A DNA stretch of 64,000 nt. Origin: Gluconobacter morbifer G707. Its GTDB lineage: Bacteria > Pseudomonadota > Alphaproteobacteria > Acetobacterales > Acetobacteraceae. Numbering within the stretch: the stretch's first letter is position 1; each line of letters starts with the position of its first letter. Position numbers and translations under genes: made by a program. The DNA lies in the NCBI RefSeq assembly GCF_000234355.1, contig NZ_AGQV01000001.1:744001-808000 (forward strand). Direction: 5' to 3'. The notes beneath the pieces are model-generated. The model was given only the letters and a program-made list of their open reading frames with translations, was not told the DNA's origin and searched no databases. This document shows positions 4,384 through 27,137 of this stretch, one piece after another.

Positions 4384-6690
4384 ATGTGCACCCTTGACAG
4401 GAGGGAGATGAAAAGGCTCCTCAGGGATATGCGGCCGCTTCTGTCGGGTCCGCGCCTTCCGATCGGTCTGTTTCGTGGATCGGTCGTATCTTCAAAACGG
4501 ATTTCAGGAAGCCCGGTGAAGTCAGCTCGCCGTTCAGCCGCTCTCCCCATGTCTTTTGCGCTCGGCGTGATGACAACCGTCTTCTGCACCATGGGCCCCC
4601 ATAGCGCCTTGGCCAGGAAGGCCGCCCACGCCCAGAAAACGGATACTCCGGGCGGAGAGCCGGCGGTTGCCTACACCGTGACGGTCACGCCCACGAAGAA
4701 CACGGAACTTGACGCCGCCATGACGGCATCGTCGCAGCTCAAATCCCTTCAGGCGTCCCATGCCGTTGGAGGTTATGCGCTCGCCGGACGGATCCGTGGA
4801 GATTATGACCGTGTGAAAAACGCGCTGGAATCATTCGGCTATTACGCCGGAACCATCACCATCACCGTGAAGGCGAATGGCCATACGCTTGATGGCCGCG
4901 ATCCGACTGTTCCTGATGTGCTGCGCGCTCTGCCTAAAGGGCAGAAAGCCACCATTACGATCTCTGCCCAGACTGGTCCCCAGTTCCATCTCGGAACCGT
5001 TTCCCTCACCACGCCGCCCCCCGCCCGGACCGCGACCCCGGCCGATGTCTCTGCCGTGAAGGCAGGGAACGCTACGGCGGGGCAGACTGTCTCCTCATTC
5101 TCCAGTGGAAAGGCCGGACGGCAGACGACGCATCCGGGAGGAAAGAGCGCACAGACCCCACAGGGCAATGCCGCTCCGCCCACATCGCAGGCCGCGGCGG
5201 CGGAAAGCACGCCCGTCACACTGACGCCGGAGGAACAGAAGGCTTTCAACCTGCGATCGGGGCAGCCCGCTGTCGCGGCTGATGTGCTGGCGGCGCAGTC
5301 CAATCTGCTGAACCATCTGCAGGAAGAGGGATACGCGACGGCAACCGTTTCGACGCCGCTAGCTTATCTGCGGCCGCAGACGAAGACGCTGGATGTGGTG
5401 TTCCGCATCCAGCGCGGGCCACGTCTGGTCATCGGTCCCATAGGCATGAATGGACTGAAAAACACCCATCAGTCCTATCTCCGCCGCCGCATTCCCCTGC
5501 ATGAGGGAGAGCTGTACCAGCCGTCCCGGATCGAAAATGCCCGTCAGGATCTTGCAAGCACGGGTGTCTTCTCTTCCGTGCAGGCCAACAACGCCCCGCC
5601 CATCGTCACACTTCCGCCCGCGGAGAGCATGGTCCCGGGCATTACGCAGGCCATGCCGGTGCGGTTCGACTTCAAGGAATCCAAACCCCGGACCGTGGCC
5701 GCGGAAGTCGGATATTCGACCGATCTGGGCGAGCGTGCCGGTGTGAGCTGGACACATCACAATATCCTCGGCAATGCCGAACAGCTTCGCCTGACGGCGC
5801 TCATCACCGGTCTGGGCGGCTCGGCGCAGCAGGGGCTCGGTTATGATTTCTATGCTGACTTTCTCAAGCCGGACTTTCTGCACAAGGGTCAGAATCTGAG
5901 TGTACGTCTCGAAGGAATCCGTCAGTGGCTGTATTCCTATCACCAGACCGCCATTCTGGGGCGGGCGGGCATCACCCGCCATGTAGGACGGTACTGGAGC
6001 CTCTCCGGCAGTCTTTCAGCCGAGCAGGAACAGATCCAGCAGTTTGGCACTACGCGAAACTACTTCATCATCTCTGCGCCGCTCTATGCCAACTTCGATA
6101 ACACCCAGCTGAGCAACCCGATCGATCCTGCCACGCATGGTGTCCGGGCTTCCCTCTCCGCCACACCTTCCGAGTCGCTGGAAAGCGGCTCCTCGTTCTT
6201 TGCCATTCTGTCCGCACAGGTTTCCACCTATTTCGATCTTGCCCATCTGGGGCTGACGAAACCGGGGAAGAGCGTCATCGCCGTGCGTGGTCTGGTCGGA
6301 TCCGTCCAAGGTGCCTCGACCTTTCAGATCCCGCCTGATCAGCGGCTCTATGCCGGTGGTCCCTCAACCGTGCGCGGATTCCGCTATCAGGGTGTCGGTC
6401 CACAGTACGGGCATACGAAATACGGCATCGGCGGCACCTCCATGGATGCTGGCTCCGTCGAATACCGTCAGCGACTCCCCTGGAATCTGGGTGTGGCAGG
6501 TTTTGTGGATGCCGGTCAGGTCGGGACGGGATCCCGGCCGGGTGAAGGCAAGCTGCGCGTGGGTTATGGTGGTGGCGTGCGGTATTTCACGCCGATCGGG
6601 CCTGTCCGTGTGGATGTGGCGCTGCCTATGAACCGCCCGGTCGGTGGCGACAAATGGGAACTCTATTTCGGCCTCGGGGAGACGTTCTGA
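4384..6690 (+). CDS. tamA: Translocation and assembly module outer-membrane protein TamA
   Basis: A 768-residue Omp85-family protein. An N-terminal targeting region (hydrophobic stretch near residues 56-78) is followed by POTRA-like repeats (about 95-210 and 290-390) and a C-terminal beta-barrel (about 420-768) ending in an aromatic residue (GLGETF). The barrel contains the GGPSTVRGFR-type loop-6 motif of Omp85 proteins. It is longer than the roughly 580 residues of E. coli TamA because a low-complexity Ala/Pro/Thr/Gly linker (about 208-290) separates the POTRAs. The start is uncertain: ATGs at 4384, 4408 and 4549 are all possible, and AGGAGG lies just before 4408. It overlaps tamB by 1 nt, so the two are translationally coupled. 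Confidence 0.92.
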   Translation: MCTLDRREMKRLLRDMRPLLSGPRLPIGLFRGSVVSSKRISGSPVKSARRSAALPMSFALGVMTTVFCTMGPHSALARKAAHAQKTDTPGGEPAVAYTVTVTPTKNTELDAAMTASSQLKSLQASHAVGGYALAGRIRGDYDRVKNALESFGYYAGTITITVKANGHTLDGRDPTVPDVLRALPKGQKATITISAQTGPQFHLGTVSLTTPPPARTATPADVSAVKAGNATAGQTVSSFSSGKAGRQTTHPGGKSAQTPQGNAAPPTSQAAAAESTPVTLTPEEQKAFNLRSGQPAVAADVLAAQSNLLNHLQEEGYATATVSTPLAYLRPQTKTLDVVFRIQRGPRLVIGPIGMNGLKNTHQSYLRRRIPLHEGELYQPSRIENARQDLASTGVFSSVQANNAPPIVTLPPAESMVPGITQAMPVRFDFKESKPRTVAAEVGYSTDLGERAGVSWTHHNILGNAEQLRLTALITGLGGSAQQGLGYDFYADFLKPDFLHKGQNLSVRLEGIRQWLYSYHQTAILGRAGITRHVGRYWSLSGSLSAEQEQIQQFGTTRNYFIISAPLYANFDNTQLSNPIDPATHGVRASLSATPSESLESGSSFFAILSAQVSTYFDLAHLGLTKPGKSVIAVRGLVGSVQGASTFQIPPDQRLYAGGPSTVRGFRYQGVGPQYGHTKYGIGGTSMDAGSVEYRQRLPWNLGVAGFVDAGQVGTGSRPGEGKLRVGYGGGVRYFTPIGPVRVDVALPMNRPVGGDKWELYFGLGETF

Positions 6691-9600
6691 TGCGGCATTG
6701 GCTGACGCAACACCGGAAACTTCTCCTGCGGATCGCGGCTGGCGTAGTTGCGGTTCCAGTCGGGCTTGTGGTGCTTGCACTTGTTGTCGTGCTGGTCGGA
6801 ATCAATATAGGTCCGGGCCAGCGACTGATCGAACGCAAGGTCGGTCCCCTTACGGGCGGAATGGTGCAGATTTCCGGTCTTCATGGGATGCTTCCCCAGC
6901 ATCTCGCCCTGACGAAACTGGAGATTCGAGACACAAAGGGAACGTGGCTCGAACTGGATGATTTCGACCTGCGCTGGTCGCCGCTGTCACTCCTGCATTT
7001 TGATGCTTCCGTCAGTAATCTGAGTGCCTCGCGGCTGGCTGTAACGCGGGCGCCCGTTTCAGAGTCTTCCTCGTCTTCGGAGACATCCTCTTCCAGTTCC
7101 GCTCCATCGAAGCTGAACCTGCGGGTCGATCTCGCCCGTCTGGATGTCGGCCGGATTGAGATCGGTCCCTCCTTCACGGGGCAGGCGAGCGTGTTCTCGC
7201 TGAACGGGCACGCCCATATCGCCAGCATTGCGCCATTTCTGAACGGCGTAACGCTCAAAACCCTGCCTGTCATGGATATGGGGCTGGGGCTTAAGCGGCT
7301 GGATGTTCCCGGTGGCCTGACCCTGACGGCCCAGACACCCCGCAACCGTCTGGCGCTTGACCTGCATTTTCAGGACGCCGCAAACGGTTTCATCACCACT
7401 CTCGCCAAAACGCCGCAGCTTGATCCGCTGGACCTGCATCTGAACCTGACCGGACCGCGTGATGCTGCCATTCTTGCGTTCGGACTGACTGCCGGACCGG
7501 TCACGGCGTCCTCCAGTGGAACGATCAACCTCTTTACGCGCGCCGGTGATCTGCACGTGAAGGCCAACGCTCCAGCCATGACCCTCAGGCCCGGTCTGAG
7601 CTGGAACGCTATCACACTGGAGACGAACCTGCATGGTCCCCTGATGGCTCCGAACGGACAGGGTGCGTTCGACATCGACAGCCTGAGCGCATCCGGGGCG
7701 GCCATCGGTCATCTGCATGCGCAGTTTGACGGCACCGAGGGCGCCAGCCCAAGCGATACGCTGGCGCATCTGACTGCCGTGCTGGACGGTCTGCGCCTGC
7801 CGGGCTCCCAGCCGCGTCTTCTGGCGGCCGCGCCACTGACGCTGGATGTCAGCGCTCATCCGCTGGCAGCGACCATGCCGGTCGTGGCGAAGATCGACCA
7901 TCCGCTGATCCATGCCAGCGCCACAGCGGACATCAAACCTGCCGCGAAGGGACATCTTTCCCTTTCCCTGCCAGATCTTCAGCCTCTGGCAGCGATGGGC
8001 GGCACGCAGCTGAAAGGCAGCGCGGGTCTGGAGGCAGATTTCGCGATGCCCCGTACGACCCATGATGATCTGACCCTGAACAGCACGGGCACGCTTTCCC
8101 TGACGGGAGGGCAGGCACAGGCCGTCAGCCTGATCGGTCGTGACGGACATTTCGCTGTCCAGCTTGCAAAGTCGCCTGCCAATGTCCTGACACTGCGGAA
8201 CTTCGGGCTGGATGGCCGGGCGCTGCATCTTCTGGTGTCTTCGGTCGTCGATCTCGCCCACGGCAACACCATGCAGACCCAGGCCTCTCTCTCCCTGCCG
8301 GATCTGAAACAGGTCAGTCCGGCCATCCAGGGGAAGACGGTCCTGAAGGCCACGGCGGACGGTCCGACCAGCGATCTGGCGGTCAAGGCCGATCTGTCGG
8401 GTGATTTCGGTACGAAGCAGGTCGCTAAGGGACCGATCGCGCTGGATGCGGATTTCCAGCATCTGCCATCGCGCCCTCAGGGAACGCTCAAGGCACACGG
8501 CACGCTCGATCACGCGCCTCTTCTGCTTGACAGTGCCTTGCAGCAGGATGATGCGGGTGCCTATCACCTGACGTTGACCAAACTCGACTGGAACAGCCTG
8601 TCCGGACACGGCAGGCTGAAGCTGCCAAAAGGCGCGAAGGTTCCTCTCGGGGATCTGGATGTCGGGGTCAGGAATCTCGCGGATTTCCGCCGCCTGATCG
8701 GACAGGCCATCGCCGGCCATCTCACACTGGCCATTCACACGACGGAGGCGGCCAGCGCGCCGCCTGTGGTTCATATGGGGCTGGACGGGATGCTCGTCAT
8801 GCAGCAGGCAAGCGTGCAGGCCCTGAAGGTGTCGGGTACCGTCACAAATCCCATCGATAACCCCAATCCCAATCTGACGCTGGATGTCTCCGGGCTCAGG
8901 GCGCAGGGCATAACGGGCAGGGCGCATGGAACTGTCCGCGGCCCGCAGAGCGGCATGGCCATCGTTCTGACCGGTGCGTTCCAGAATGTGGCCGGTGCGC
9001 CAGCGGATATCGACACGTCACTCCTGCTCGACATGCCGAAAAAGACCGTCCGGCTGGACCGCCTGACGGCTACGGCCAAGGGGGAACACATCCGTCTCGG
9101 CGGTCCGGCCAATGTGTCTTTCGGCAAGACGATGGGCGTCGATCACCTGCGGGCAACCGTGGCGCCGCAGGGCGTATCCCCCGCGACCATTGATGTCGCC
9201 GGGACGTTCAAACCCAATCTGAACGCAACCGTCCGGCTGGAGAATGTATCCCCCGCGATTGCCCGTCCTTTTGCGCCTGATCTCGCAGCCAGAGGTACGA
9301 TTTCGGGCAATGCGAAACTCGGTGGCACGATCGAGGCTCCGACTGGCACCGTTTCCCTGACCGCGCGGAACCTGCATATGCAGACGGGGCCGGCCGCTTC
9401 CCTGCCGGCCGCGCAGATCCTGGCCAATATCGGCCTTGCAGGGAAAACGGCGAAAGTGGACGTCTCCATGGACGCCGGAGCAAAAGTGGCTCTGGCTGTC
9501 CGCGGTACCGCCCCCCTGTCCAGTACCGGCCCTATGGCGCTGGCGACGACCGGGCATGTTGACCTCTCGGTTGCGAATGCCGTCCTGGGCGCGAACGGGA

Positions 9601-10847
9601 TGGGCGTCGCCGGACAGGTTGCCATCAACATGAACGTGGCCGGTACGGCGTCCCAGCCCCGTGCATCCGGACAAATCGCGCTCCAGAATGCGGCTTTCGA
9701 TCATTACGCGCAGGGTGTGCGGCTCAATAACATCAACGGTACGCTGGTAGCCTCTGGTGACAGCATCGCCATCAATCATATCCTCGCCCATGCCGGGGCG
9801 GGAACCATCGCGCTGGATGGCACGGTCGGCGCTTTCCGGCCGGACCTGCCCGTTGATCTGCATATCGTCGCCACGAAGGCGCGCCCGATTTCGAGCGATC
9901 TGCTGACCGCGACGATCAACACCGATCTGCATGTTCATGGACAGGCCACGACGCGGCTGGATGTGGACGGCAAGGTCGTTATTCCCAATGCGACGATCAA
10001 CATTCCGGATTCCATGCCGTCTTCCGTGCCGCAATTGACCGTCATCCGACCCGGAGAAAAAGCTCCCTCCGCCTCGGATAGCAGTCTGATCATCGGTCTT
10101 GGAATCGATGTCGTCTCGCCGGGTGAGTTCTTTGTGCAGGGGCATGGCGTGTTCGCGGAGATGCAGGGAACGCTGCATGTCCGTGGCACCAGCAGCGCGC
10201 CGGACGTGACCGGAGGATTTGATCTCAAGCGTGGCAATTTCAATCTCGGCGGCGTCAATCTGAACTTCACGCACGGGCGCGTCGGCTTCAATGGTTCGGG
10301 CGTGAGGCACAGCCTCGATCCGACGCTGGATTTCCGGGCGGACCGCAATGCCAGCGGCACTGTCGCCAGTCTGCTCGTGACAGGATATGCCAGCGCGCCG
10401 AAGATCGATTTCAGTTCCGTTCCCAGCCTTCCGCGGGATCAGGTTCTGTCCATCCTTCTGTTCGGAACGGACAGCCATTCCCTGTCCACGACGCAGCTTG
10501 CCGAGCTTGGTGCCGCAGTGGTGCAGCTTGCAGGCGGGTCCGCCTTCGATCCTTTGAGCAAGATCCGCAATACGCTCGGACTGGACCGTCTGGCGATCGG
10601 CGGTGGCAGTGGCGTGGATAACGGCGGCACCAGCGTCGAAGCTGGCAAGTATGTCATGAAGGGCGTGTATGTCGGGGCCAAGCAGGCCACGTCCGGCTCC
10701 GGCACGCAGGCGCAGGTTCAGGTTGACCTGACCAAGCGTCTGAAGCTGAACACGACGGTCGGAACGGGTGGACAGGTGACAGGCTTCACCACGCCGGAAA
10801 ACGATCCTGGATCGAGCGTGGGCCTGTCCTACGGCTTCAGTTACTGA
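6690..10847 (+). CDS. tamB: Translocation and assembly module inner-membrane protein TamB
   Basis: A 1385-residue AsmA-like protein that partners TamA and, as now understood for the family, bridges the periplasm for phospholipid transport and outer-membrane protein assembly. One N-terminal transmembrane anchor (about residues 12-38) is followed by very long repetitive beta-rich sequence and the conserved C-terminal TamB (DUF490) domain (about 1000-1385), ending in the aromatic GLSYGFSY. A serine-rich run at about residues 118-135 (SESSSSSETSSSSS) is unusual for the family. The start is the ATG fused to the tamA stop (TGATG). The last 7 nt overlap the convergent gene that follows. Confidence 0.93.
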   Translation: MRHWLTQHRKLLLRIAAGVVAVPVGLVVLALVVVLVGINIGPGQRLIERKVGPLTGGMVQISGLHGMLPQHLALTKLEIRDTKGTWLELDDFDLRWSPLSLLHFDASVSNLSASRLAVTRAPVSESSSSSETSSSSSAPSKLNLRVDLARLDVGRIEIGPSFTGQASVFSLNGHAHIASIAPFLNGVTLKTLPVMDMGLGLKRLDVPGGLTLTAQTPRNRLALDLHFQDAANGFITTLAKTPQLDPLDLHLNLTGPRDAAILAFGLTAGPVTASSSGTINLFTRAGDLHVKANAPAMTLRPGLSWNAITLETNLHGPLMAPNGQGAFDIDSLSASGAAIGHLHAQFDGTEGASPSDTLAHLTAVLDGLRLPGSQPRLLAAAPLTLDVSAHPLAATMPVVAKIDHPLIHASATADIKPAAKGHLSLSLPDLQPLAAMGGTQLKGSAGLEADFAMPRTTHDDLTLNSTGTLSLTGGQAQAVSLIGRDGHFAVQLAKSPANVLTLRNFGLDGRALHLLVSSVVDLAHGNTMQTQASLSLPDLKQVSPAIQGKTVLKATADGPTSDLAVKADLSGDFGTKQVAKGPIALDADFQHLPSRPQGTLKAHGTLDHAPLLLDSALQQDDAGAYHLTLTKLDWNSLSGHGRLKLPKGAKVPLGDLDVGVRNLADFRRLIGQAIAGHLTLAIHTTEAASAPPVVHMGLDGMLVMQQASVQALKVSGTVTNPIDNPNPNLTLDVSGLRAQGITGRAHGTVRGPQSGMAIVLTGAFQNVAGAPADIDTSLLLDMPKKTVRLDRLTATAKGEHIRLGGPANVSFGKTMGVDHLRATVAPQGVSPATIDVAGTFKPNLNATVRLENVSPAIARPFAPDLAARGTISGNAKLGGTIEAPTGTVSLTARNLHMQTGPAASLPAAQILANIGLAGKTAKVDVSMDAGAKVALAVRGTAPLSSTGPMALATTGHVDLSVANAVLGANGMGVAGQVAINMNVAGTASQPRASGQIALQNAAFDHYAQGVRLNNINGTLVASGDSIAINHILAHAGAGTIALDGTVGAFRPDLPVDLHIVATKARPISSDLLTATINTDLHVHGQATTRLDVDGKVVIPNATINIPDSMPSSVPQLTVIRPGEKAPSASDSSLIIGLGIDVVSPGEFFVQGHGVFAEMQGTLHVRGTSSAPDVTGGFDLKRGNFNLGGVNLNFTHGRVGFNGSGVRHSLDPTLDFRADRNASGTVASLLVTGYASAPKIDFSSVPSLPRDQVLSILLFGTDSHSLSTTQLAELGAAVVQLAGGSAFDPLSKIRNTLGLDRLAIGGGSGVDNGGTSVEAGKYVMKGVYVGAKQATSGSGTQAQVQVDLTKRLKLNTTVGTGGQVTGFTTPENDPGSSVGLSYGFSY

Positions 10848-19995: not shown

Positions 19996-22341
19996 TTGTC
20001 CGCTGACGAGATCGTTGATCCGAACCAGAGCCCGGCCAGCAGCCGACGACGGATCTTCCAGATCCTCGGCCCGATCATTGGCGTTCTTCTGGTCATTGCC
20101 ACGATCACGATCCTCAGCCTTCATAATTACCAGACGACCCGCAAGGGCGCGATTGCCCTGTCCAATGACCTGCTCCGCAGCCAGCAGCGGTACGTTACAC
20201 AGGAGGTCAGGGACTATCTCGTCCCGGCATCCAACGGTGCCCTTATTGCGGAGGACATGCTTCGTGGTCCCCTGACGGACCAGACACCCAACACGTTCAT
20301 GCTCTATGGCCGCTCTGTTCTGACGCATATGGCCCAGGTGGACAGTTTCTATATCGCCAATGACCAGGGGCAGTTCTGGATGGTGACCCGTCACGGACAA
20401 GGCGGGTTTGAGGAGACGCATTTCACCACAGAAAACGGCAAGCAGATTTATCGGCACAACTACGTTGATTCGAACGGTAAATTCACCGGGACGGGGATGG
20501 ATCCGGCTTCGGGTTATGATGTGCGGACGCGTGACTGGTTCAAAAAAGCCATCAAGCGTGAACATGACACAGGGCGGGAACTGCACTGGACCGACCCCTA
20601 TCCCTATATTTCCACACATCAGTTCATCCTGACGGCTTCCATCGCCTTTCCGGGACAGGACGGGCATACGACCGTCTTTGCCATCAATATCTCCCTCAAC
20701 CAGATGACGGATTTTCTCAATCATCTTCAGGTAGGGCGGAGCGGGCAGGCCGTGATCGTGGATCTGCACGGTCATGTCATTGCCGGCCATAATCTGCGGA
20801 CCAGTGCGGGCGATACAAACTTCGACCCGTCGACAATCCAACTGGACCCGAAAACGCAGCCGGTTTTCACCCGTGCCCTGAACATGTTCCTCGTCAAGGG
20901 ACCACAGACTGGGCTCGTCAGGGAGGGCGGCCGGAATTATGTGACGATTGCGTCCGTGCTGCCGTTCGTACATCGGCGATGGGTTCTGCTGCTGAACGCG
21001 CCGGAAGACGATTTCGCGGATTTTGCCGTAACGGTCAGACGACAGAATATCGGCTTTTCCCTTCTCGTGATCGGTCTGGCATCCGTTCTGGCAATTGCAC
21101 TGATCGCGCAGGGGCGGCATGTGGAACGCCTGCGCAAGCGGATGAACCGCGATCGCGCGCAGGTCCGGGAAGAAAATGTCACGGTTCAGGCAATCGCCAG
21201 CACGCCGGACCTGTTTGATCCTACTCATGACGCGCCGGTCCTGACAGAGGCACTGGCCGTACGGACGGGTTCGCGGAGGGCCAGTCTCTGGCGTCTTCTG
21301 TCCGAAGGTGACCGGCTGATCTGTGAGGACGCTTTCGATGCGGCCCGTGACGTGCACAGCACGGGCATGGAGATCAGTCGCAGCGAAAACGGAAAACTGT
21401 TCGACGCCGTGACGGAGGGGCATGTCCTCTCGATTGCCAATGCGTCCCAGGATGACCGCGTCCAGACCTTCCAGCGGACCGTCATGCGGACTGTCGGAGC
21501 CGACAGACTGTTTCTTCAGCCGGTGGTGTATGGTCATCAGGTCGTCGGGGCCATCGTGCTCGAAAACCCGACGGTTGTGGAGACGATGGAGCATATCGTT
21601 GCTTTTGTTGCTTCCATCGTAGCGCTGCGCTTCTCCTATGCCTATGACGAGATGGGCGATGGACAGGGCAAGACTTTCAGCCTGACCCAGAGCAGCCAGA
21701 AAACCCGTTTCGACGAAGGTTTTCTGCTGGAGCCAGGAGAAGAACAGAAAACGCAGGGGGAAGCGGGGCACCCTGACGGGGTATTACCGGCCGGGGTCTA
21801 TCCGCAGGTTCCGGTGATGGTCATCTCTTTTGATGATCCGTATGGCAGCAACCGTGACAGCATTGTCCGGGCGATGAAGGTGGTTTCTACCCTCAGCCAG
21901 GATATCCAGCGCATCGCTGACGAGAAAAATCTCTTCTCCGTGCAGGTCGTGAGCAACCGAGTTGTTCTGGTGGGTGGAATCAGCCAGACGCCGGACACGG
22001 AGGCCGCGCTTCGTCTTGCCGATGCAGCCGTGTCCATCCGGGAGGTCTGCCTTTCCACGCTAGCTGCTGCGGATATTGATCCTGTCTTTAGGATCGGACT
22101 GGATGTCGGGCCGGTCATGGCCAGCATGCTGGGCACCAATCCGGCCATCTTCAATGTCTGGGGTGAGGCTATCAATGTGGCTGAACTGCTGACGGCCAGT
22201 GCTCCGGATGCCGGAACCATCCAGGTTTCCGAACATGCCTATGCCCTGCTGCGGGAGCATTTCCTCTTCCGTCCACGGGGCATGTTCTATCTTCCCAGCA
22301 GTGGCACGACCCGCAGCTTCGTTCTGGCCGGCCGTCGATGA
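19996..22341 (+). CDS. Membrane sensor with extracytoplasmic, GAF and degenerate cyclase domains
   Basis: A 781-residue protein. Transmembrane segments at about residues 22-44 and 352-373 flank a large Cache-type extracytoplasmic sensor domain. A GAF-like domain (about 390-550) and a class III adenylate/guanylate cyclase-like domain (about 595-781) follow. The cyclase fold is recognisable from RIGLDVGPVMASMLGT and NVWGEAINVAEL. However, the metal-binding aspartates seem lost (VVSNRVVLVGG where active enzymes have a Gly-Asp), and the catalytic Arg after the conserved Asn is Leu. Cyclase activity is therefore doubtful. The start must be TTG at 19996: an in-frame stop lies 9 nt before it, and no ATG occurs before the first membrane segment. 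An ATGA overlap couples it to mlaE. Confidence 0.8.
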   Translation: MSADEIVDPNQSPASSRRRIFQILGPIIGVLLVIATITILSLHNYQTTRKGAIALSNDLLRSQQRYVTQEVRDYLVPASNGALIAEDMLRGPLTDQTPNTFMLYGRSVLTHMAQVDSFYIANDQGQFWMVTRHGQGGFEETHFTTENGKQIYRHNYVDSNGKFTGTGMDPASGYDVRTRDWFKKAIKREHDTGRELHWTDPYPYISTHQFILTASIAFPGQDGHTTVFAINISLNQMTDFLNHLQVGRSGQAVIVDLHGHVIAGHNLRTSAGDTNFDPSTIQLDPKTQPVFTRALNMFLVKGPQTGLVREGGRNYVTIASVLPFVHRRWVLLLNAPEDDFADFAVTVRRQNIGFSLLVIGLASVLAIALIAQGRHVERLRKRMNRDRAQVREENVTVQAIASTPDLFDPTHDAPVLTEALAVRTGSRRASLWRLLSEGDRLICEDAFDAARDVHSTGMEISRSENGKLFDAVTEGHVLSIANASQDDRVQTFQRTVMRTVGADRLFLQPVVYGHQVVGAIVLENPTVVETMEHIVAFVASIVALRFSYAYDEMGDGQGKTFSLTQSSQKTRFDEGFLLEPGEEQKTQGEAGHPDGVLPAGVYPQVPVMVISFDDPYGSNRDSIVRAMKVVSTLSQDIQRIADEKNLFSVQVVSNRVVLVGGISQTPDTEAALRLADAAVSIREVCLSTLAAADIDPVFRIGLDVGPVMASMLGTNPAIFNVWGEAINVAELLTASAPDAGTIQVSEHAYALLREHFLFRPRGMFYLPSSGTTRSFVLAGRR

Positions 22342-23150
22342 AAGTGCCGAACCGCATCATTCTCCTGCGCCGCTTTCTGATCCGTCTGGGTTATTTCACC
22401 CGGACGCAGATGCGCTTCACCCTTATGGTGATCGGTGGTTCGTGGGGCGTGCTCCGGGAGGCATGCAGCCCGACAACCTGGCGGCGGACGGTGCGCATCG
22501 AATTCTGGCAGAGTCTGCATCAGGCAACGGGCGGAGGCCTGATCAGCGTGCTGGTGACTGGAGCCCTGACGGGGTTCGGTATTGTGGCGCAGGCGGTGTA
22601 CTGGCTCGGTTTTGCCGGTTTGGCCCAGATGACGGGGTCGATCCTGTCTACTGTTCTCGTCCGGGAAATCGCTCCGGTCCTGGTCGGAGTCATTCTGCTG
22701 GGGCGGTCAGGAATGCTCATGCTGACGGAGCTGGGTACCCTGACGGTCGGGGGGCAGATGCGTGCGCTGACCGGCATGGGCATCGATCCGTTTCTGACTT
22801 TCCTTGTGCCTCGCACACTGGCCATGACGATCAGTGGCTTTACGCTCGGCATCATTTTCAGCATGGCGGCGCTTCTGGTCGGATTTGCCGTCTGCCGGGT
22901 CGAGGATGTCGTTACTATGCCGATCTGGGCCTTTTTGGACCAAGTTATCAGCAGCATGCATCCAATCGATTATTTCGTTATCCCTGCCAAGTTCACATGT
23001 AGCGGGTTTGCGGTCGGTGTCTGTTCCTGTCTGTCAGGCATGGATGTCACGACGGAGGATGACCTTTCTTCTCTCATGCCTCGTGGCTTTGCACGCGGGA
23101 TGCTGACCATCATGGTCATCAACGTCATTTTCAGCGTGAGTTTTGACTGA
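22338..23150 (+). CDS. mlaE: MlaE-type ABC transporter permease
   Basis: A 270-residue permease of the MlaE/YrbE family, the inner-membrane part of MCE lipid transporters. An amphipathic N-terminal helix is followed by about five membrane segments (about residues 68-270). It contains the family's ILSTVLVREIAPVLVGVILLGRSG region, here near residues 100-127. It overlaps the cyclase-like gene by 4 nt and is followed at once by the ABC-like subunit gene, giving the order permease, ATPase-like, MlaD, lipoprotein. Confidence 0.9.
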   Translation: MKVPNRIILLRRFLIRLGYFTRTQMRFTLMVIGGSWGVLREACSPTTWRRTVRIEFWQSLHQATGGGLISVLVTGALTGFGIVAQAVYWLGFAGLAQMTGSILSTVLVREIAPVLVGVILLGRSGMLMLTELGTLTVGGQMRALTGMGIDPFLTFLVPRTLAMTISGFTLGIIFSMAALLVGFAVCRVEDVVTMPIWAFLDQVISSMHPIDYFVIPAKFTCSGFAVGVCSCLSGMDVTTEDDLSSLMPRGFARGMLTIMVINVIFSVSFD

Positions 23151-23151
23151 C

Positions 23152-23871
23152 ATGGCTGATGAACGGGACATGCTCTCCAACGCCCTCAATCCGGTTCTCG
23201 AACTGCTGGACGCTGTTCCGCGCTTCGATGAAAGCGGGCTCGTTTCCGCGAAATACAACTTGCATCTCGATGCGGGGGAATGTGCTCTGATTGAGTGTCG
23301 CGACATGACGCAGGCCAGTCTGTTCGCCGATATGTGCCTTGGTCTTGTCCCACTGTCGGACGGACATATCCGCTGCATGGGGCTGGACTGGAGTGACCTG
23401 AATGAGCGCCGGAGCTGGGCCCTGCGTGGTCGCTGTGGGCGAATTGTGATCGGTGGCGGGTGGATCGACCTTTACGGGACACACATCAACATTCTCTGGC
23501 CCCAGCTTCATCATACCCGCACGCCAATGGACAGGCTCGTGACGCAGGCGGGGCATCTTGCCACGCGTTTCGGTTTGCCGGGCCTGCCAGTAGTTCCGCC
23601 GGGGCGACTGTCCGCGGCGGACCGGCAGCGCGCGGCCTGTGCGAGGGCGTTTCTGGGTGAACCGTCGCTTCTTCTGCTGGAACACCCCATGGAAGGCGCG
23701 TCTGATATCATGATGGAAGCTTTTCTCTCCACCCTGACGGATGCGCGGGACCGGGGGTGCGCGGTTGTCTGGTTTGCGCCTGATGAGAGCGGATGGGGCG
23801 ATTATGCGTCTGATGCGACAATACGCCTGCGACTGTATGATGATGGTCTGTTTTCAATGAGGGGTTCGTGA
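23152..23871 (+). CDS. MlaF-position ABC subunit lacking ATPase motifs
   Basis: A 239-residue protein in the slot of the MlaF ATPase. The overall ABC fold can be followed, but every nucleotide-handling motif is changed. Where Walker A should be (after GECALIE, residues 49-57) the sequence is CRDMTQASL, with no glycine-rich loop or lysine. The Q-loop Gln is missing near 101. The signature is LSAAD (153-157). Walker B is LLLLEHP (173-179), with the usual Asp-Glu replaced by Glu-His. The H-loop His is Ala near 209. The frame is intact and coupled on both sides, so this is not a decayed gene. ATG at 23152 is preferred; a TTG lies 9 nt upstream. Probably a pseudo-ATPase. Confidence 0.82.
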   Translation: MADERDMLSNALNPVLELLDAVPRFDESGLVSAKYNLHLDAGECALIECRDMTQASLFADMCLGLVPLSDGHIRCMGLDWSDLNERRSWALRGRCGRIVIGGGWIDLYGTHINILWPQLHHTRTPMDRLVTQAGHLATRFGLPGLPVVPPGRLSAADRQRAACARAFLGEPSLLLLEHPMEGASDIMMEAFLSTLTDARDRGCAVVWFAPDESGWGDYASDATIRLRLYDDGLFSMRGS

Positions 23872-24827
23872 TGTTTCGTGTGCGCCAGACCGATTCCGCG
23901 CAACCGCTTTTCCAGAACCGCTATGCGGATGAATGGGTCGGGCTCCTGGTTCTCGGTGCCGTCGTCCTGTTCTCAGTGGCAGTGATCGAGGCCGGCTTCC
24001 TGAAACAGTGGCTCACACCAGAGAAAAAGATCCATTTCGTGCTGCCTGAAAGCGGTGTGGCCGGTCTGGGTATTGGCGATGACATCGAGGTGATGGGCGT
24101 GCATGCCGGTGAAATCCGCCATCTGAAGCTTAATGACAGCGGTCGGATGTATGCAGAAGGGTATATCGATCCGCAGTTCGTGCCCTTCATCCGGCAGGAC
24201 AGTACGGCCATCATCCGGCATCGTCTGATCGTGGCCGGGGCGACCTATATCGAGCTGGATCGCGGTAAGGGGCAGCCCTTGGACTGGAAATATGCCGTCA
24301 TGAAGGCCACGGTCGAGCCCAATCCTGCAGATGTCATCACCAAGACCGTCACGGATCTGCGCAACCAGCTCGTTCCTGCCATGCAGAACGTTCAGAAAAT
24401 CACGGCGCAGGTCAACGACATGGTTACGGACATGCGGAAGGGTAAAGGCACGGTCGGAGGGTTGCTGACAAAGGATGACGTGCTGAACGAAGCCAATGCG
24501 GCGCTCCAGCATCTGGATCAGGTTATCGCAGGGCTGAAACCGATCGAGAAACAGGCGGGAAGTGTCATGGTCAAGGCGGATGGCAGCATGAAAAATGTCC
24601 GCTCCGCCACGGATACGCTTCGCAAGGCAATGCCGCAGGTCCGTGAGACGGTCAACCACACGGACGAGGCCACCGCGGCCCTGCCGGCCCTCATCACGCA
24701 GGCGCAGGCGAGCGCCAACAGTTTGCGCAAACTGACCGACCAGCTTCGCGGACTGTGGCTGCTGGGCGGCAATGGCAAGACAGAACCAAAGACACGCCGT
24801 CTTCCGGCGCAGGCGGTGCGGCCATGA
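23871..24827 (+). CDS. mlaD: MlaD-type MCE domain protein
   Basis: A 318-residue substrate-binding component of an MCE lipid transporter. One N-terminal membrane anchor (about residues 22-44) is followed by a single MCE domain (about 52-125) and a long helical, coiled-coil-prone C-terminus (about 140-295) carrying the KGKGTVGGLLTKDD motif typical of MlaD-like proteins. The start overlaps the preceding stop by 1 nt (ATG at 23871); a GTG at 23868 is an alternative. It is coupled to the lipoprotein gene by a 4-nt overlap. Confidence 0.9.
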   Translation: MFRVRQTDSAQPLFQNRYADEWVGLLVLGAVVLFSVAVIEAGFLKQWLTPEKKIHFVLPESGVAGLGIGDDIEVMGVHAGEIRHLKLNDSGRMYAEGYIDPQFVPFIRQDSTAIIRHRLIVAGATYIELDRGKGQPLDWKYAVMKATVEPNPADVITKTVTDLRNQLVPAMQNVQKITAQVNDMVTDMRKGKGTVGGLLTKDDVLNEANAALQHLDQVIAGLKPIEKQAGSVMVKADGSMKNVRSATDTLRKAMPQVRETVNHTDEATAALPALITQAQASANSLRKLTDQLRGLWLLGGNGKTEPKTRRLPAQAVRP

Positions 24828-25756
24828 TGCGCATCCTTCTGGCCTGCTGTGCTTCTGGTCTGCTGCTGGCTGGATGTTCCTCCGCCGGGGGCAGCCATGG
24901 ACCGAAGCCGGATCAGTCCTATGATGACGCCATGGATACGGCGCGCAGCGTTTATGACAGCGGTCAGATCACGCAGGCGGAAGCACAATACCGGTCTGCC
25001 TATGACCGCGCGCTTCTGCGTGATGACGTGGACCAGATCCATGAAGCCGGCTTCAATCTGGCGACGGTCCTGCTTAACGAAAATCAGCCCAGGCGTGCCC
25101 TGATCATTCTGGGCAAGGTGGAATCCGCCATGATGGCGCGGCATCGAGCGGATCTGGGGGATCTGAGGGTTGTCGAGGCGGCGGCGCTGTATCGTCTCGG
25201 GGATATTTCGGGTGCCCAGCAGAAGGTACAGGGGGAAGTGCAGTCGGCGGATACGGGCATCCGGGAACGCGCCCTTTACCTGACGGGGCTCTGTGCCTCG
25301 GACCTGCGGCAGGGGGATGTCCTGTCGCAGGCTGTCACGCAACTGGGGCTGTCTCCTGAAAAAGGTGCTCGGACAGACCGGGACGAACTGCTGGCCCGGC
25401 TGGACCTGCTCCGTGGCCATCCTGTGGAAGCGTTGGGTCTGGCCGAAACGGTGGTGGATCGCCGCCGTGACAGGCTGGATTATCGTGGAATGCGTCGTGC
25501 GCTTCTTCTGGCCGCTCAGTCAGCTGATGCTGCCGGGCAGAGCCAGCAGGCCGCTCGTCTGCGTCAGCAGGAAGATGACAGCCTCAGACAGTCCGATCAG
25601 CAGAGAAGCGTGCGGGGTGAGGTCAGTGACGCCCCGGACACCACAGGCCACGACGACCGTGTCAACGTGTCCGTCAGTCTGCGTAATCCTGGCAGTCCGA
25701 TCCGAATCAACAGCGTATCGGCAGGGCAGGTCGGAGACACCGGAGGCACCCAGTGA
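24824..25756 (+). CDS. Lipoprotein with TPR-like repeats, last gene of the Mla-type operon
   Basis: A 310-residue predicted lipoprotein with an N-terminal signal ending in the lipobox LLLAGC (Cys near residue 18). The body (about 35-270) is alpha-helical with TPR-like periodicity, and a short Ser/Asn-rich tail follows. It starts inside the mlaD stop (ATGATG). The position suggests an outer-membrane or periplasmic partner of the MCE protein, comparable to the ABC-type auxiliary lipoprotein slot (PqiC/MlaC-like positions), but it does not resemble MlaC or PqiC by sequence. No specific family recognised. Confidence 0.78.
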   Translation: MMRILLACCASGLLLAGCSSAGGSHGPKPDQSYDDAMDTARSVYDSGQITQAEAQYRSAYDRALLRDDVDQIHEAGFNLATVLLNENQPRRALIILGKVESAMMARHRADLGDLRVVEAAALYRLGDISGAQQKVQGEVQSADTGIRERALYLTGLCASDLRQGDVLSQAVTQLGLSPEKGARTDRDELLARLDLLRGHPVEALGLAETVVDRRRDRLDYRGMRRALLLAAQSADAAGQSQQAARLRQQEDDSLRQSDQQRSVRGEVSDAPDTTGHDDRVNVSVSLRNPGSPIRINSVSAGQVGDTGGTQ

Positions 25757-25838: not shown

Positions 25839-27137
25839 CTATCCGGAGCAATGCGCCTGTTCGATCAGCGCCAGTCCCTCCGCCACGGAAACGAATTCTG
25901 AGCCGGTATCAATCTTCTCCGGACCGAACCGATTGATAAACAGCTGCCTTACGGCCGGAACAAAAGATGTGCCTCCGGTCAGGAAGACACGGTCAATTTT
26001 TTCCGGTCCGGTTTCAGCATCTTCCATCGCCCAGCCAATGGCTGTATCCAGCCGCGACAGATCCGGGGCGATCCAGCTTTCGAATGCCGTGCGGGTTATG
26101 GTCTCTTTTATATGCAGATCGCGGTGCGTGAAGCGCAGGACGGTCTGCTCCTGACGGGAAAGTTCGGTTTTGGCGCGTCCTATGGTGCGATACAGGTTCT
26201 GGCTCTCCTGATCTTCGATCAGCCTCAGGAGATTCCGGAGCTTCTGCGGATCGGAGGCTGTTTTCGCTACATCGGCAATGCTGCGCAGGGTCTGGGGCGT
26301 GCGCATCAGTGAGAGGCGATGCCACCGCCCGAGGGAAGCATACCATTCCGCGGGAACAGGCAGGGGCTGGCCGCCCATGACGCGATAGGTCGTTCCTTTC
26401 CCGAGCGCGGGCGCCACTACGTTTTCGATGATTCGGTAATCGAACTGGTCTCCTGCGATGCCAACGCCGGAATGTCCCAGTGTAAGCGTGCGGGGCGAAC
26501 CTTCCGGATCAAAGCGCATGATGGAGAAATCGCTCGTGCCGCCTCCGAAATCGCCAACCAGAACAGTAGCCGGACGATCGAGTCGCTGCATGAAACGCCA
26601 GCCGGCCCCCTCTGGCTCCAGAACGACGCGGGGTTCGGTAAAGCCGGCTTCCAGAAAGCTCTCTTTCAGGCGCAGCACGCCCAGTGCGTCATCGGCCAGT
26701 TCGCCGGCGAATCGGACCGGACGACCGATCGTGACGCTGACCTGTTCCGGCGCAAGTTCTGCCTTTTCCATCAGCGCGCGCAGGAAACGTGCAATCATGG
26801 CCTGAAGTGTCATGGTGGTATTGAAAACGCGTGTCTCGCGGAAAGAACCCTGAGCGAGATAGGTCTTCATGGACATAATCAGACGGTTTTCGGCCGGATC
26901 ATCCAGATAGGTTTCGATCGCATCAACGCCGATTGCGTCCTGCAGGATGCGTCGGCTTCCAGCCTGCTCCTGCCACAGACAAAGCAGGGTGCGGCAGGTT
27001 TCGCTTGCGGCACTGTCCACGAAGCTGAACAGAGCAGGGTGTGTCTGGCCGTTTTCGTCCGAGATGACGATGACGCTGTTGGTGGTGCCGAAATCAATGC
27101 CGACGCGAATCTTTGCTGTGGATGGCTGCGTCGTCAT
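25839..27137 (-). CDS. Hsp70 family protein, YegD-like
   Basis: A 432-residue actin/Hsp70-fold ATPase. It has phosphate-1 motif GIDFGTTNS at residues 13-21, phosphate-2 VGDFGGGTSDFS near 194-205 and an adenosine motif FLTGGTSFVPA near 390. It lacks the roughly 200-residue substrate-binding and lid domains of DnaK. This matches the YegD class of short Hsp70 relatives, whose clients are poorly known. It is monocistronic, convergent with the Mla-type operon. Confidence 0.88.
   Translation of the reverse strand: MTTQPSTAKIRVGIDFGTTNSVIVISDENGQTHPALFSFVDSAASETCRTLLCLWQEQAGSRRILQDAIGVDAIETYLDDPAENRLIMSMKTYLAQGSFRETRVFNTTMTLQAMIARFLRALMEKAELAPEQVSVTIGRPVRFAGELADDALGVLRLKESFLEAGFTEPRVVLEPEGAGWRFMQRLDRPATVLVGDFGGGTSDFSIMRFDPEGSPRTLTLGHSGVGIAGDQFDYRIIENVVAPALGKGTTYRVMGGQPLPVPAEWYASLGRWHRLSLMRTPQTLRSIADVAKTASDPQKLRNLLRLIEDQESQNLYRTIGRAKTELSRQEQTVLRFTHRDLHIKETITRTAFESWIAPDLSRLDTAIGWAMEDAETGPEKIDRVFLTGGTSFVPAVRQLFINRFGPEKIDTGSEFVSVAEGLALIEQAHCSG

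Follow-up and report, generated by a model that had tools for sequence, protein, structure and literature searches.

The window, by which we mean the whole stretch of 64,000 nucleotides analysed here, belongs to the 2.9-Mb genome (G000) of Gluconobacter morbifer G707 and carries five plus-strand genes whose ends overlap or nearly touch (Table 1). They encode, in order, a cyclase-like sensor, an MlaE permease, an ABC subunit in the place of the ATPase, an MCE protein and a lipoprotein, and the same five-gene order is found in 114 of the 122 loci that we collected (a count that includes repeats, as five loci duplicate the sequence of another), out to Desulfobacterales MAGs and Skermanella. The preliminary description had placed an intact gene in the MlaF slot beside permease and MCE genes, and open reading frame, Pfam matches and gene order bear this out: the third frame runs uninterrupted from an ATG at 23152 to a stop codon at 23869-23871 and encodes 239 amino acids. 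We refer to its product as pseudo-MlaF.

Table 1. Genes of the operon and sites within them (positions in the window)
Feature	Position	Strand	Basis
Gene 1, sensor: dCache, GAF and C-terminal class III cyclase-like domain; start codon uncertain	19996..22341	+	Pfam PF02743, PF01590, PF00211
Gene 2, MlaE-family permease	22338..23150	+	PF02405, 131.5 bits (cut-off 22.5)
Inferred cytoplasmic coupling-helix stretch, permease residues 133-145; acids replaced by G139 and R142	22734..22772	+	Alignment
Gene 3, pseudo-MlaF (ABC nucleotide-binding domain without ATPase residues)	23152..23871	+	ORF, alignment, AlphaFold2, structure matches
Former Walker A, residues 49-56, CRDMTQAS	23296..23319	+	ORF translation, alignment
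Former Q-loop Gln position, I100	23449..23451	+	Alignment
Former signature, residues 153-158, LSAADR, with new conserved D157	23608..23625	+	D157 in 112/116
Former Walker B, residues 173-179, LLLLEHP, with new conserved E177	23668..23688	+	E177 in 115/117
Former H-loop His position, P210	23779..23781	+	His in 2/117
Gene 4, MCE (MlaD-type) protein	23868..24827	+	PF02470, 37.2 bits (cut-off 25.1); AlphaFold2
Gene 5, predicted lipoprotein	24824..25756	+	Lipobox; weak TPR-like similarity below Pfam cut-offs

In the AlphaFold2 model of the MCE protein (mean pLDDT 76.7, pTM 0.52), a long N-terminal helix (residues 18-49), which we have taken as transmembrane, leads into the MCE domain (53-149) and a helical tail (about 153-299), the length of which is a prediction, as the tail is weakly modelled with block means of 47-73 beyond residue 230. 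This predicted layout resembles that of other MCE needles. The lipobox Cys18 of the lipoprotein (24875-24877) forms an invariant column in a 39-row alignment, and the protein is predicted to reside in the outer membrane. Under the limits applied, neither Pfam nor NCBIfam gave a PqiC-like (DUF330) match to the lipoprotein, and Pfam gave no STAS (MlaB) or MlaC match among the five proteins of the operon.

ATP-site motifs of pseudo-MlaF and its homologues

We set the motif positions of pseudo-MlaF by alignment to the two canonical MlaF proteins of the same genome. Residues 49-56 align without gaps to the canonical GGSGSGKS, and the Walker A loop with its lysine is replaced as had been claimed (CRDMTQASL, residues 49-57). 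The claims that the Q-loop Gln is gone and that Walker B reads LLLLEHP also hold; within the latter, the Asp has become Glu and the catalytic Glu has become His, giving EH in the window. For the H-loop, the reported loss of the His stands, but the residue aligned to it is P210 and not the Ala first named, which precedes it; a strand of the AlphaFold2 model (residues 204-209) ends just before P210. The LSGGQ signature, which the preliminary list did not contain, is lost as well and reads LSAAD at residues 153-157, while the D-loop aligns ambiguously, with an Asp (D185) that may still occupy it. What these residues do in MlaF is set out in passages of PMC7784689 and PMC8241846. We confirm that the observation on this subunit is real and that it is larger than first described.

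AlphaFold2 (46 sequences; pLDDT 93.8, pTM 0.90) predicts an ABC nucleotide-binding-domain fold for pseudo-MlaF, with a helix that begins at residue 52, within the former P-loop. The nearest solved structures are the ABC domains of LolD, FtsE, YbbA, MacB, MetN and MlaF; as FtsE, LolD and MacB are no worse matches than MlaF, structure alone cannot assign an MlaF origin.

A first search for relatives gave some ABC match in 59 of 60 genomes, of which 29 close sequences (the window included) stood apart from weak remaining matches. All 29 are without the Walker A Lys, the signature glycines, the Walker B Asp and the H-loop His, and in L030, which is among them, the Q-loop column holds Gln and the catalytic position Glu. 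The named scan returned 39 family loci plus one ordinary ABC ATPase; the family loci come from Gluconobacter, Neokomagataea, Saccharibacter, Swaminathania, Ameyamaea, Endobacter and other Acetobacteraceae, and beyond that family from Skermanella, alphaproteobacterial and Rhodospirillales MAGs and three deltaproteobacterial MAGs. Together with the window, 2 further loci and 80 from numbered genomes, these 39 make up a census of 122 loci, from which 117 distinct sequences were aligned. The census omits an ABC ATPase from Oceanospirillum that retains Walker A and has 22% identity (L073) and a weak match (L033); two loci outside it (L188, L189) look by eye like two more degenerate members. Four damaged-looking carriers, G174, G368, G339 and G317 (loci L176, L177, L135 and L136), were kept in the counts: in G174 (L176), a small genome, the whole operon appears fragmented, through either decay or sequencing error, in G368 the match is in two pieces, and G339 and G317 have one in-frame TGA each in the matched stretch.

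The Walker A Lys occurs in none of the 115 scorable homologues (two have gaps), its place being taken by Ala in 82 and Arg in 5. The Walker B Asp is found in one sequence of 117, with Glu there in 115, and the signature glycines are kept in 5/116 and 6/116. The H-loop His, rare in the census, is also retained in a pseudo-MlaF fragment outside it (L194). As the Q-loop Gln is kept in 26 and the catalytic Glu in 12 of the 117 homologues, the loss is not uniform across positions; the lysine is present in no sequence. We used as a control 22 same-family canonical MlaF loci, selected because they neighbour strong MlaE matches and resemble the canonical MlaF of the genome, a choice biased to intact proteins: here Lys is kept in 21/21, Gln in 21/21, both glycines in 22/22, Asp in 22/22, Glu in 21/22 and His in 22/22 (rows that are partial are L201 for MlaF and L211, L212 and L214 for the neighbouring MlaE). 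The loss of these residues is shared family-wide, and the refuting case named in the preliminary description, close relatives with intact Walker A/B, did not occur among the 117 sequences.

Ranked by conservation among 225 columns of the pseudo-MlaF alignment, the Q-loop position comes 222nd, residue 53 224th, G155 212th, the catalytic Glu 164th and the H-loop 160th, and the Walker A columns are spread between ranks 89 and 224, some of them holding new preferences (CRD at 49-51, Ala55). Other positions are invariant in the family (R92, G96, H121, G144, R165) or nearly so (E177, W80, W104), and the old ATP site has gained two near-invariant acids, E177 and D157. We read this pattern, on the alignment, as a sign that selection maintains a property different from ATP hydrolysis. 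The two acids, along with the homologues that keep the catalytic Glu or the Q-loop Gln, would suit a pseudo-MlaF that still hydrolyses nucleotide through an unusual site built, for example, on E177 and D157. We hold this to be highly improbable, given the P-loop lysine missing from all scorable homologues, a former P-loop that is partly helical in the model and several other contact positions that are among the most variable columns.

Conservation of the operon and its partner genes

The eight loci that depart from the standard gene order comprise two contig ends (L034, L170), a split operon (L163, with its other half in L198) and five loci of one genus (L162, L164, L165, L167, L175) in which no cyclase-like gene was found and the other four genes are kept, suggesting that the sensor is dispensable. 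Pairwise dN/dS was calculated for 20 Gluconobacter sequences from pairs with dS of 0.1 to 1.2 (78 pairs for the pseudo-ATPase). The medians are 0.054 for the sensor, 0.033 for the permease, 0.071 for the pseudo-ATPase, 0.040 for the MCE protein and 0.106 for the lipoprotein, indicating that all five genes are under purifying selection; in a dead gene the ratio would be near 1. The losses in pseudo-MlaF are not due to chance or sequencing error, because the lysine is missing throughout the census and this gene's median ratio is so low; with the frames open and the losses shared family-wide, we likewise rejected a pseudogene. The earlier suggestion that this subunit is kept and should be unable to hydrolyse ATP is thus supported by the census, the canonical control, purifying selection and operon conservation.

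At an E-value limit of 1e-25, pseudo-MlaF was found in 137 of 397 sampled Acetobacteraceae genomes, and operon regions were taken from 80 of these carriers. The other 260 genomes fell below threshold, which suggests that it is dispensable in many Acetobacteraceae. A class-wide sample contained six carriers among 385 genomes, two of them outside Acetobacteraceae. In trees that included 28 of the 122 pseudo-loci and had no outgroup, pseudo-MlaF forms one side of a branch with support of 100/100, and its MlaE likewise with 97/91, the MlaE tree carrying a long-branch warning; the simplest history that these unrooted trees suggest would be a single old conversion of pseudo-MlaF and its MlaE.

An operon version with a canonical MlaF was sought through the lipoprotein, which is present in 142/397 family genomes compared with the 137 for pseudo-MlaF (the E-value limits differ). 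No canonical MlaF lay beside the lipoprotein in the visible parts of the nine fetched places that had no listed pseudo-MlaF (L190-L198, nine genomes; L199, of 100 bases, and G156, a further genome with the lipoprotein only, were left out). Four of these places are contig ends (L192, L194, L195, L196), and in L190 and L191 the lipoprotein occurs without MlaE, the ABC matches there being presumably fused exporters on the opposite strand. In L193 (5748-7597) and L197 (1123-3074), which belong to one Acetobacteraceae genus, an MCE gene and a lipoprotein gene form a pair without MlaE or ATPase beside it, and the MCE protein of these pairs seems by eye to begin with a signal peptide. Such pairs standing alone suggest that the parts may have other uses.

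A coupling helix joins MlaE to MlaF, according to passages of PMC7790496 and PMC8241846, which number the flanking helices differently. Within the stretch where we infer this helix to lie, canonical MlaE proteins have Asp in 21/22 (one gap) as opposed to Arg or Lys in 94/112 pseudo-operon permeases, and three residues earlier an acid in 18/22 as opposed to Gly in 106/112. This change suggests that the permease has adapted to the pseudo-ATPase.

The search for a second MlaF that the preliminary description had proposed found canonical MlaF genes beside both other MlaE genes of the genome. Two or more MlaE matches were obtained in each of the 80 sampled carriers (in G174 they are weak and perhaps fragments), and three or more in 11 of another 12, the exception being G793, a MAG with one. 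These genes could supply a canonical MlaF for a heterodimer with pseudo-MlaF in which one site works, as happens in heterodimeric ABC exporters. In a composite ABC site, however, the Walker A/B motifs of one subunit come together with the signature of its partner (passages of PMC7756269), and a heterodimer should lack a complete ATP site because pseudo-MlaF has lost Walker A/B plus the signature that would serve its partner. With neither composite site complete and the coupling-helix acids gone from the partner permease, we consider this arrangement unlikely. A canonical MlaF homodimer might instead dock on the operon's MlaE under some conditions, with pseudo-MlaF as placeholder or inhibitor; the canonical protein is present in the genome, and mycobacterial MceG may offer a precedent for an ATPase that is encoded separately. 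The basic residue in place of the coupling-helix Asp and the clean split of both pseudo-MlaF and its MlaE from the canonical ones make this very unlikely in our view. Of the two options raised earlier, a complex that works without hydrolysis is therefore favoured, while an ATPase partner from elsewhere is possible but disfavoured by the loss of signature and Walker A and by the changed charge of the coupling helix.

The sensor gene is present in 115 of the 122 loci. Its cyclase-like domain (PF00211, 8.4e-15) matches adenylate cyclases in the PDB, and we scored 110 sequences at columns with established roles in these enzymes, leaving aside the first metal Asp, which lies outside the reference fragment. 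The second metal Asp is found in 8, the purine-site Lys in 33, the transition-state Arg in 6 and the transition-state Asn in 26 (the window included), while the base-recognising Asp is found in none, with Asn there in 100. The domain looks, from these residues, like a pseudo-cyclase that is without most catalytic residues, so that, taken with pseudo-MlaF, neither of the operon's nucleotide-using domains looks catalytically intact. FtsEX acts without transport, and the operon might similarly be a sensor or mechanical relay, not a lipid transporter, in which the pseudo-ATPase couples the cytoplasmic pseudo-cyclase to the periplasm. The wide occurrence of the degenerate sensor and the place of FtsE among the best structural matches to pseudo-MlaF agree with a relay, but MCE and MlaE are lipid-transport families and the five loci of one genus keep the rest of the operon without a cyclase gene, and so we judge a relay quite unlikely.

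Proposed mechanism and related systems

On balance we lean towards the operon encoding an MCE/MlaE-type envelope lipid complex with a non-hydrolytic pseudo-ATPase as scaffold or gate, through which lipid flow would probably be passive. Pseudo-MlaF, folded as an ABC nucleotide-binding domain, would most likely dock on MlaE as a structural or regulatory subunit and hold the permease without ATP-driven cycling. MlaE, the helical-tailed MCE protein and the lipoprotein would assemble into a conduit leading from the inner toward the outer membrane, through which lipid would pass down its own gradient, and the sensor with its degenerate cyclase domain probably regulates this conduit. The word exporter, used for the complex in the preliminary description, is unsupported. 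It is tempting to speculate further that the complex is an ATP-free, signal-gated bridge whose motor was converted once, long ago, which allows phospholipid to diffuse from the inner to the outer membrane and is gated by the pseudo-cyclase sensor; we regard this fuller version as possible and distinctly tentative.

The inner-membrane partners with which PqiB and LetB function have no ATPase domain (PMC12436622, in part), and lipid has been reported to pass from MlaD to MlaC spontaneously and independently of ATP, the hydrolysis of which is said to prevent this transfer (PMC10212509, in part). Both fit a passive complex, perhaps one running from the inner to the outer membrane. The same passages of PMC10212509 state that genetic evidence is strongly in favour of canonical Mla as a retrograde, ATP-dependent transporter, so that even the parent system is not accepted as working by passive anterograde flow. 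More generally, the direction of MCE/Mla lipid movement to or from the outer membrane, and the part played by ATP, are disputed in passages of PMC10212509 and PMC10665443.

Compared with E. coli MlaFEDB, the pseudo-operon appears to be without a working ATP site and has no STAS (MlaB) or MlaC match, and it adds a long helical MCE tail, a sensor gene and a lipoprotein gene. Closer in layout is Brucella MpcEFDA, which also consists of MlaE, an MlaF-like subunit, a needle-tailed MCE protein and a lipoprotein encoded last; in the passages of PMC12436622 that describe it, however, MpcF serves a well-conserved transporter as its ABC ATPase, MpcE carries a STAS domain and MpcA is PqiC-like, a Pfam match that the lipoprotein here does not show. 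PqiABC and LetAB resemble the pseudo-operon as MCE bridges working without an ABC ATPase (PMC12436622, in part), and differ in that the partners are PqiA and LetA instead of MlaE, that each MCE protein has several MCE domains and that there is no pseudo-ATPase. ABC exporters with one degenerate site have similarly lost catalytic residues (PMC7756269, in part), but they keep one active site, whereas pseudo-MlaF is a single gene that has lost Walker A, Walker B, signature and H-loop. Our comparison with known systems otherwise covered the open-access literature, in which no description of such a pseudo-MlaF system was found among the matches listed.

Mycobacterial Mce transporters combine helical-tailed MCE proteins and MlaE-like permeases with a separately encoded ATPase, MceG; MceG is taken as a working ATPase, and the mycobacterial Mce operon is not known to contain a pseudo-ATPase. 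The word cyclase is absent from the main text of an MCE gene-neighbourhood survey (PMC5561183). The loss of most catalytic residues from the cyclase-like domain and the replaced coupling-helix acids of the permease are new in this analysis.

A conserved pseudo-ATPase in the motor's place suggests that a lipid machine without an ATP motor of its own exists in acetic acid bacteria and in a small number of others. It would be a family-wide case of a one-gene ABC subunit losing Walker A, Walker B, signature and H-loop together. An Mla-like complex kept under selection with a motor that has no ATP site amounts to a natural experiment on the role of ATP: if the complex moves lipid, conduction by MlaE and MCE proteins needs no ATP, and the ATP-free direction could be read from it.

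The pseudo-MlaF complex would be one of several envelope systems in this genome, which elsewhere encodes two MlaC-family genes and other MCE genes, among them a PqiB-like ORF with three MCE-domain matches (G000 C7:123173-124231). About 9 kb upstream of the operon lies TamB (6654-10847, with a PF04357 match at its end), preceded by an ORF that we take to be TamA-like (4384-6690). As TamB is encoded, another inner-to-outer route probably exists, and two candidate envelope lipid systems, TamA-like/TamB and the pseudo-MlaF operon, lie close together. On its other side the operon adjoins a minus-strand ORF (25839-27137) that is presumably Hsp70/DnaK-like, a relative of which is found near the operon in L057.
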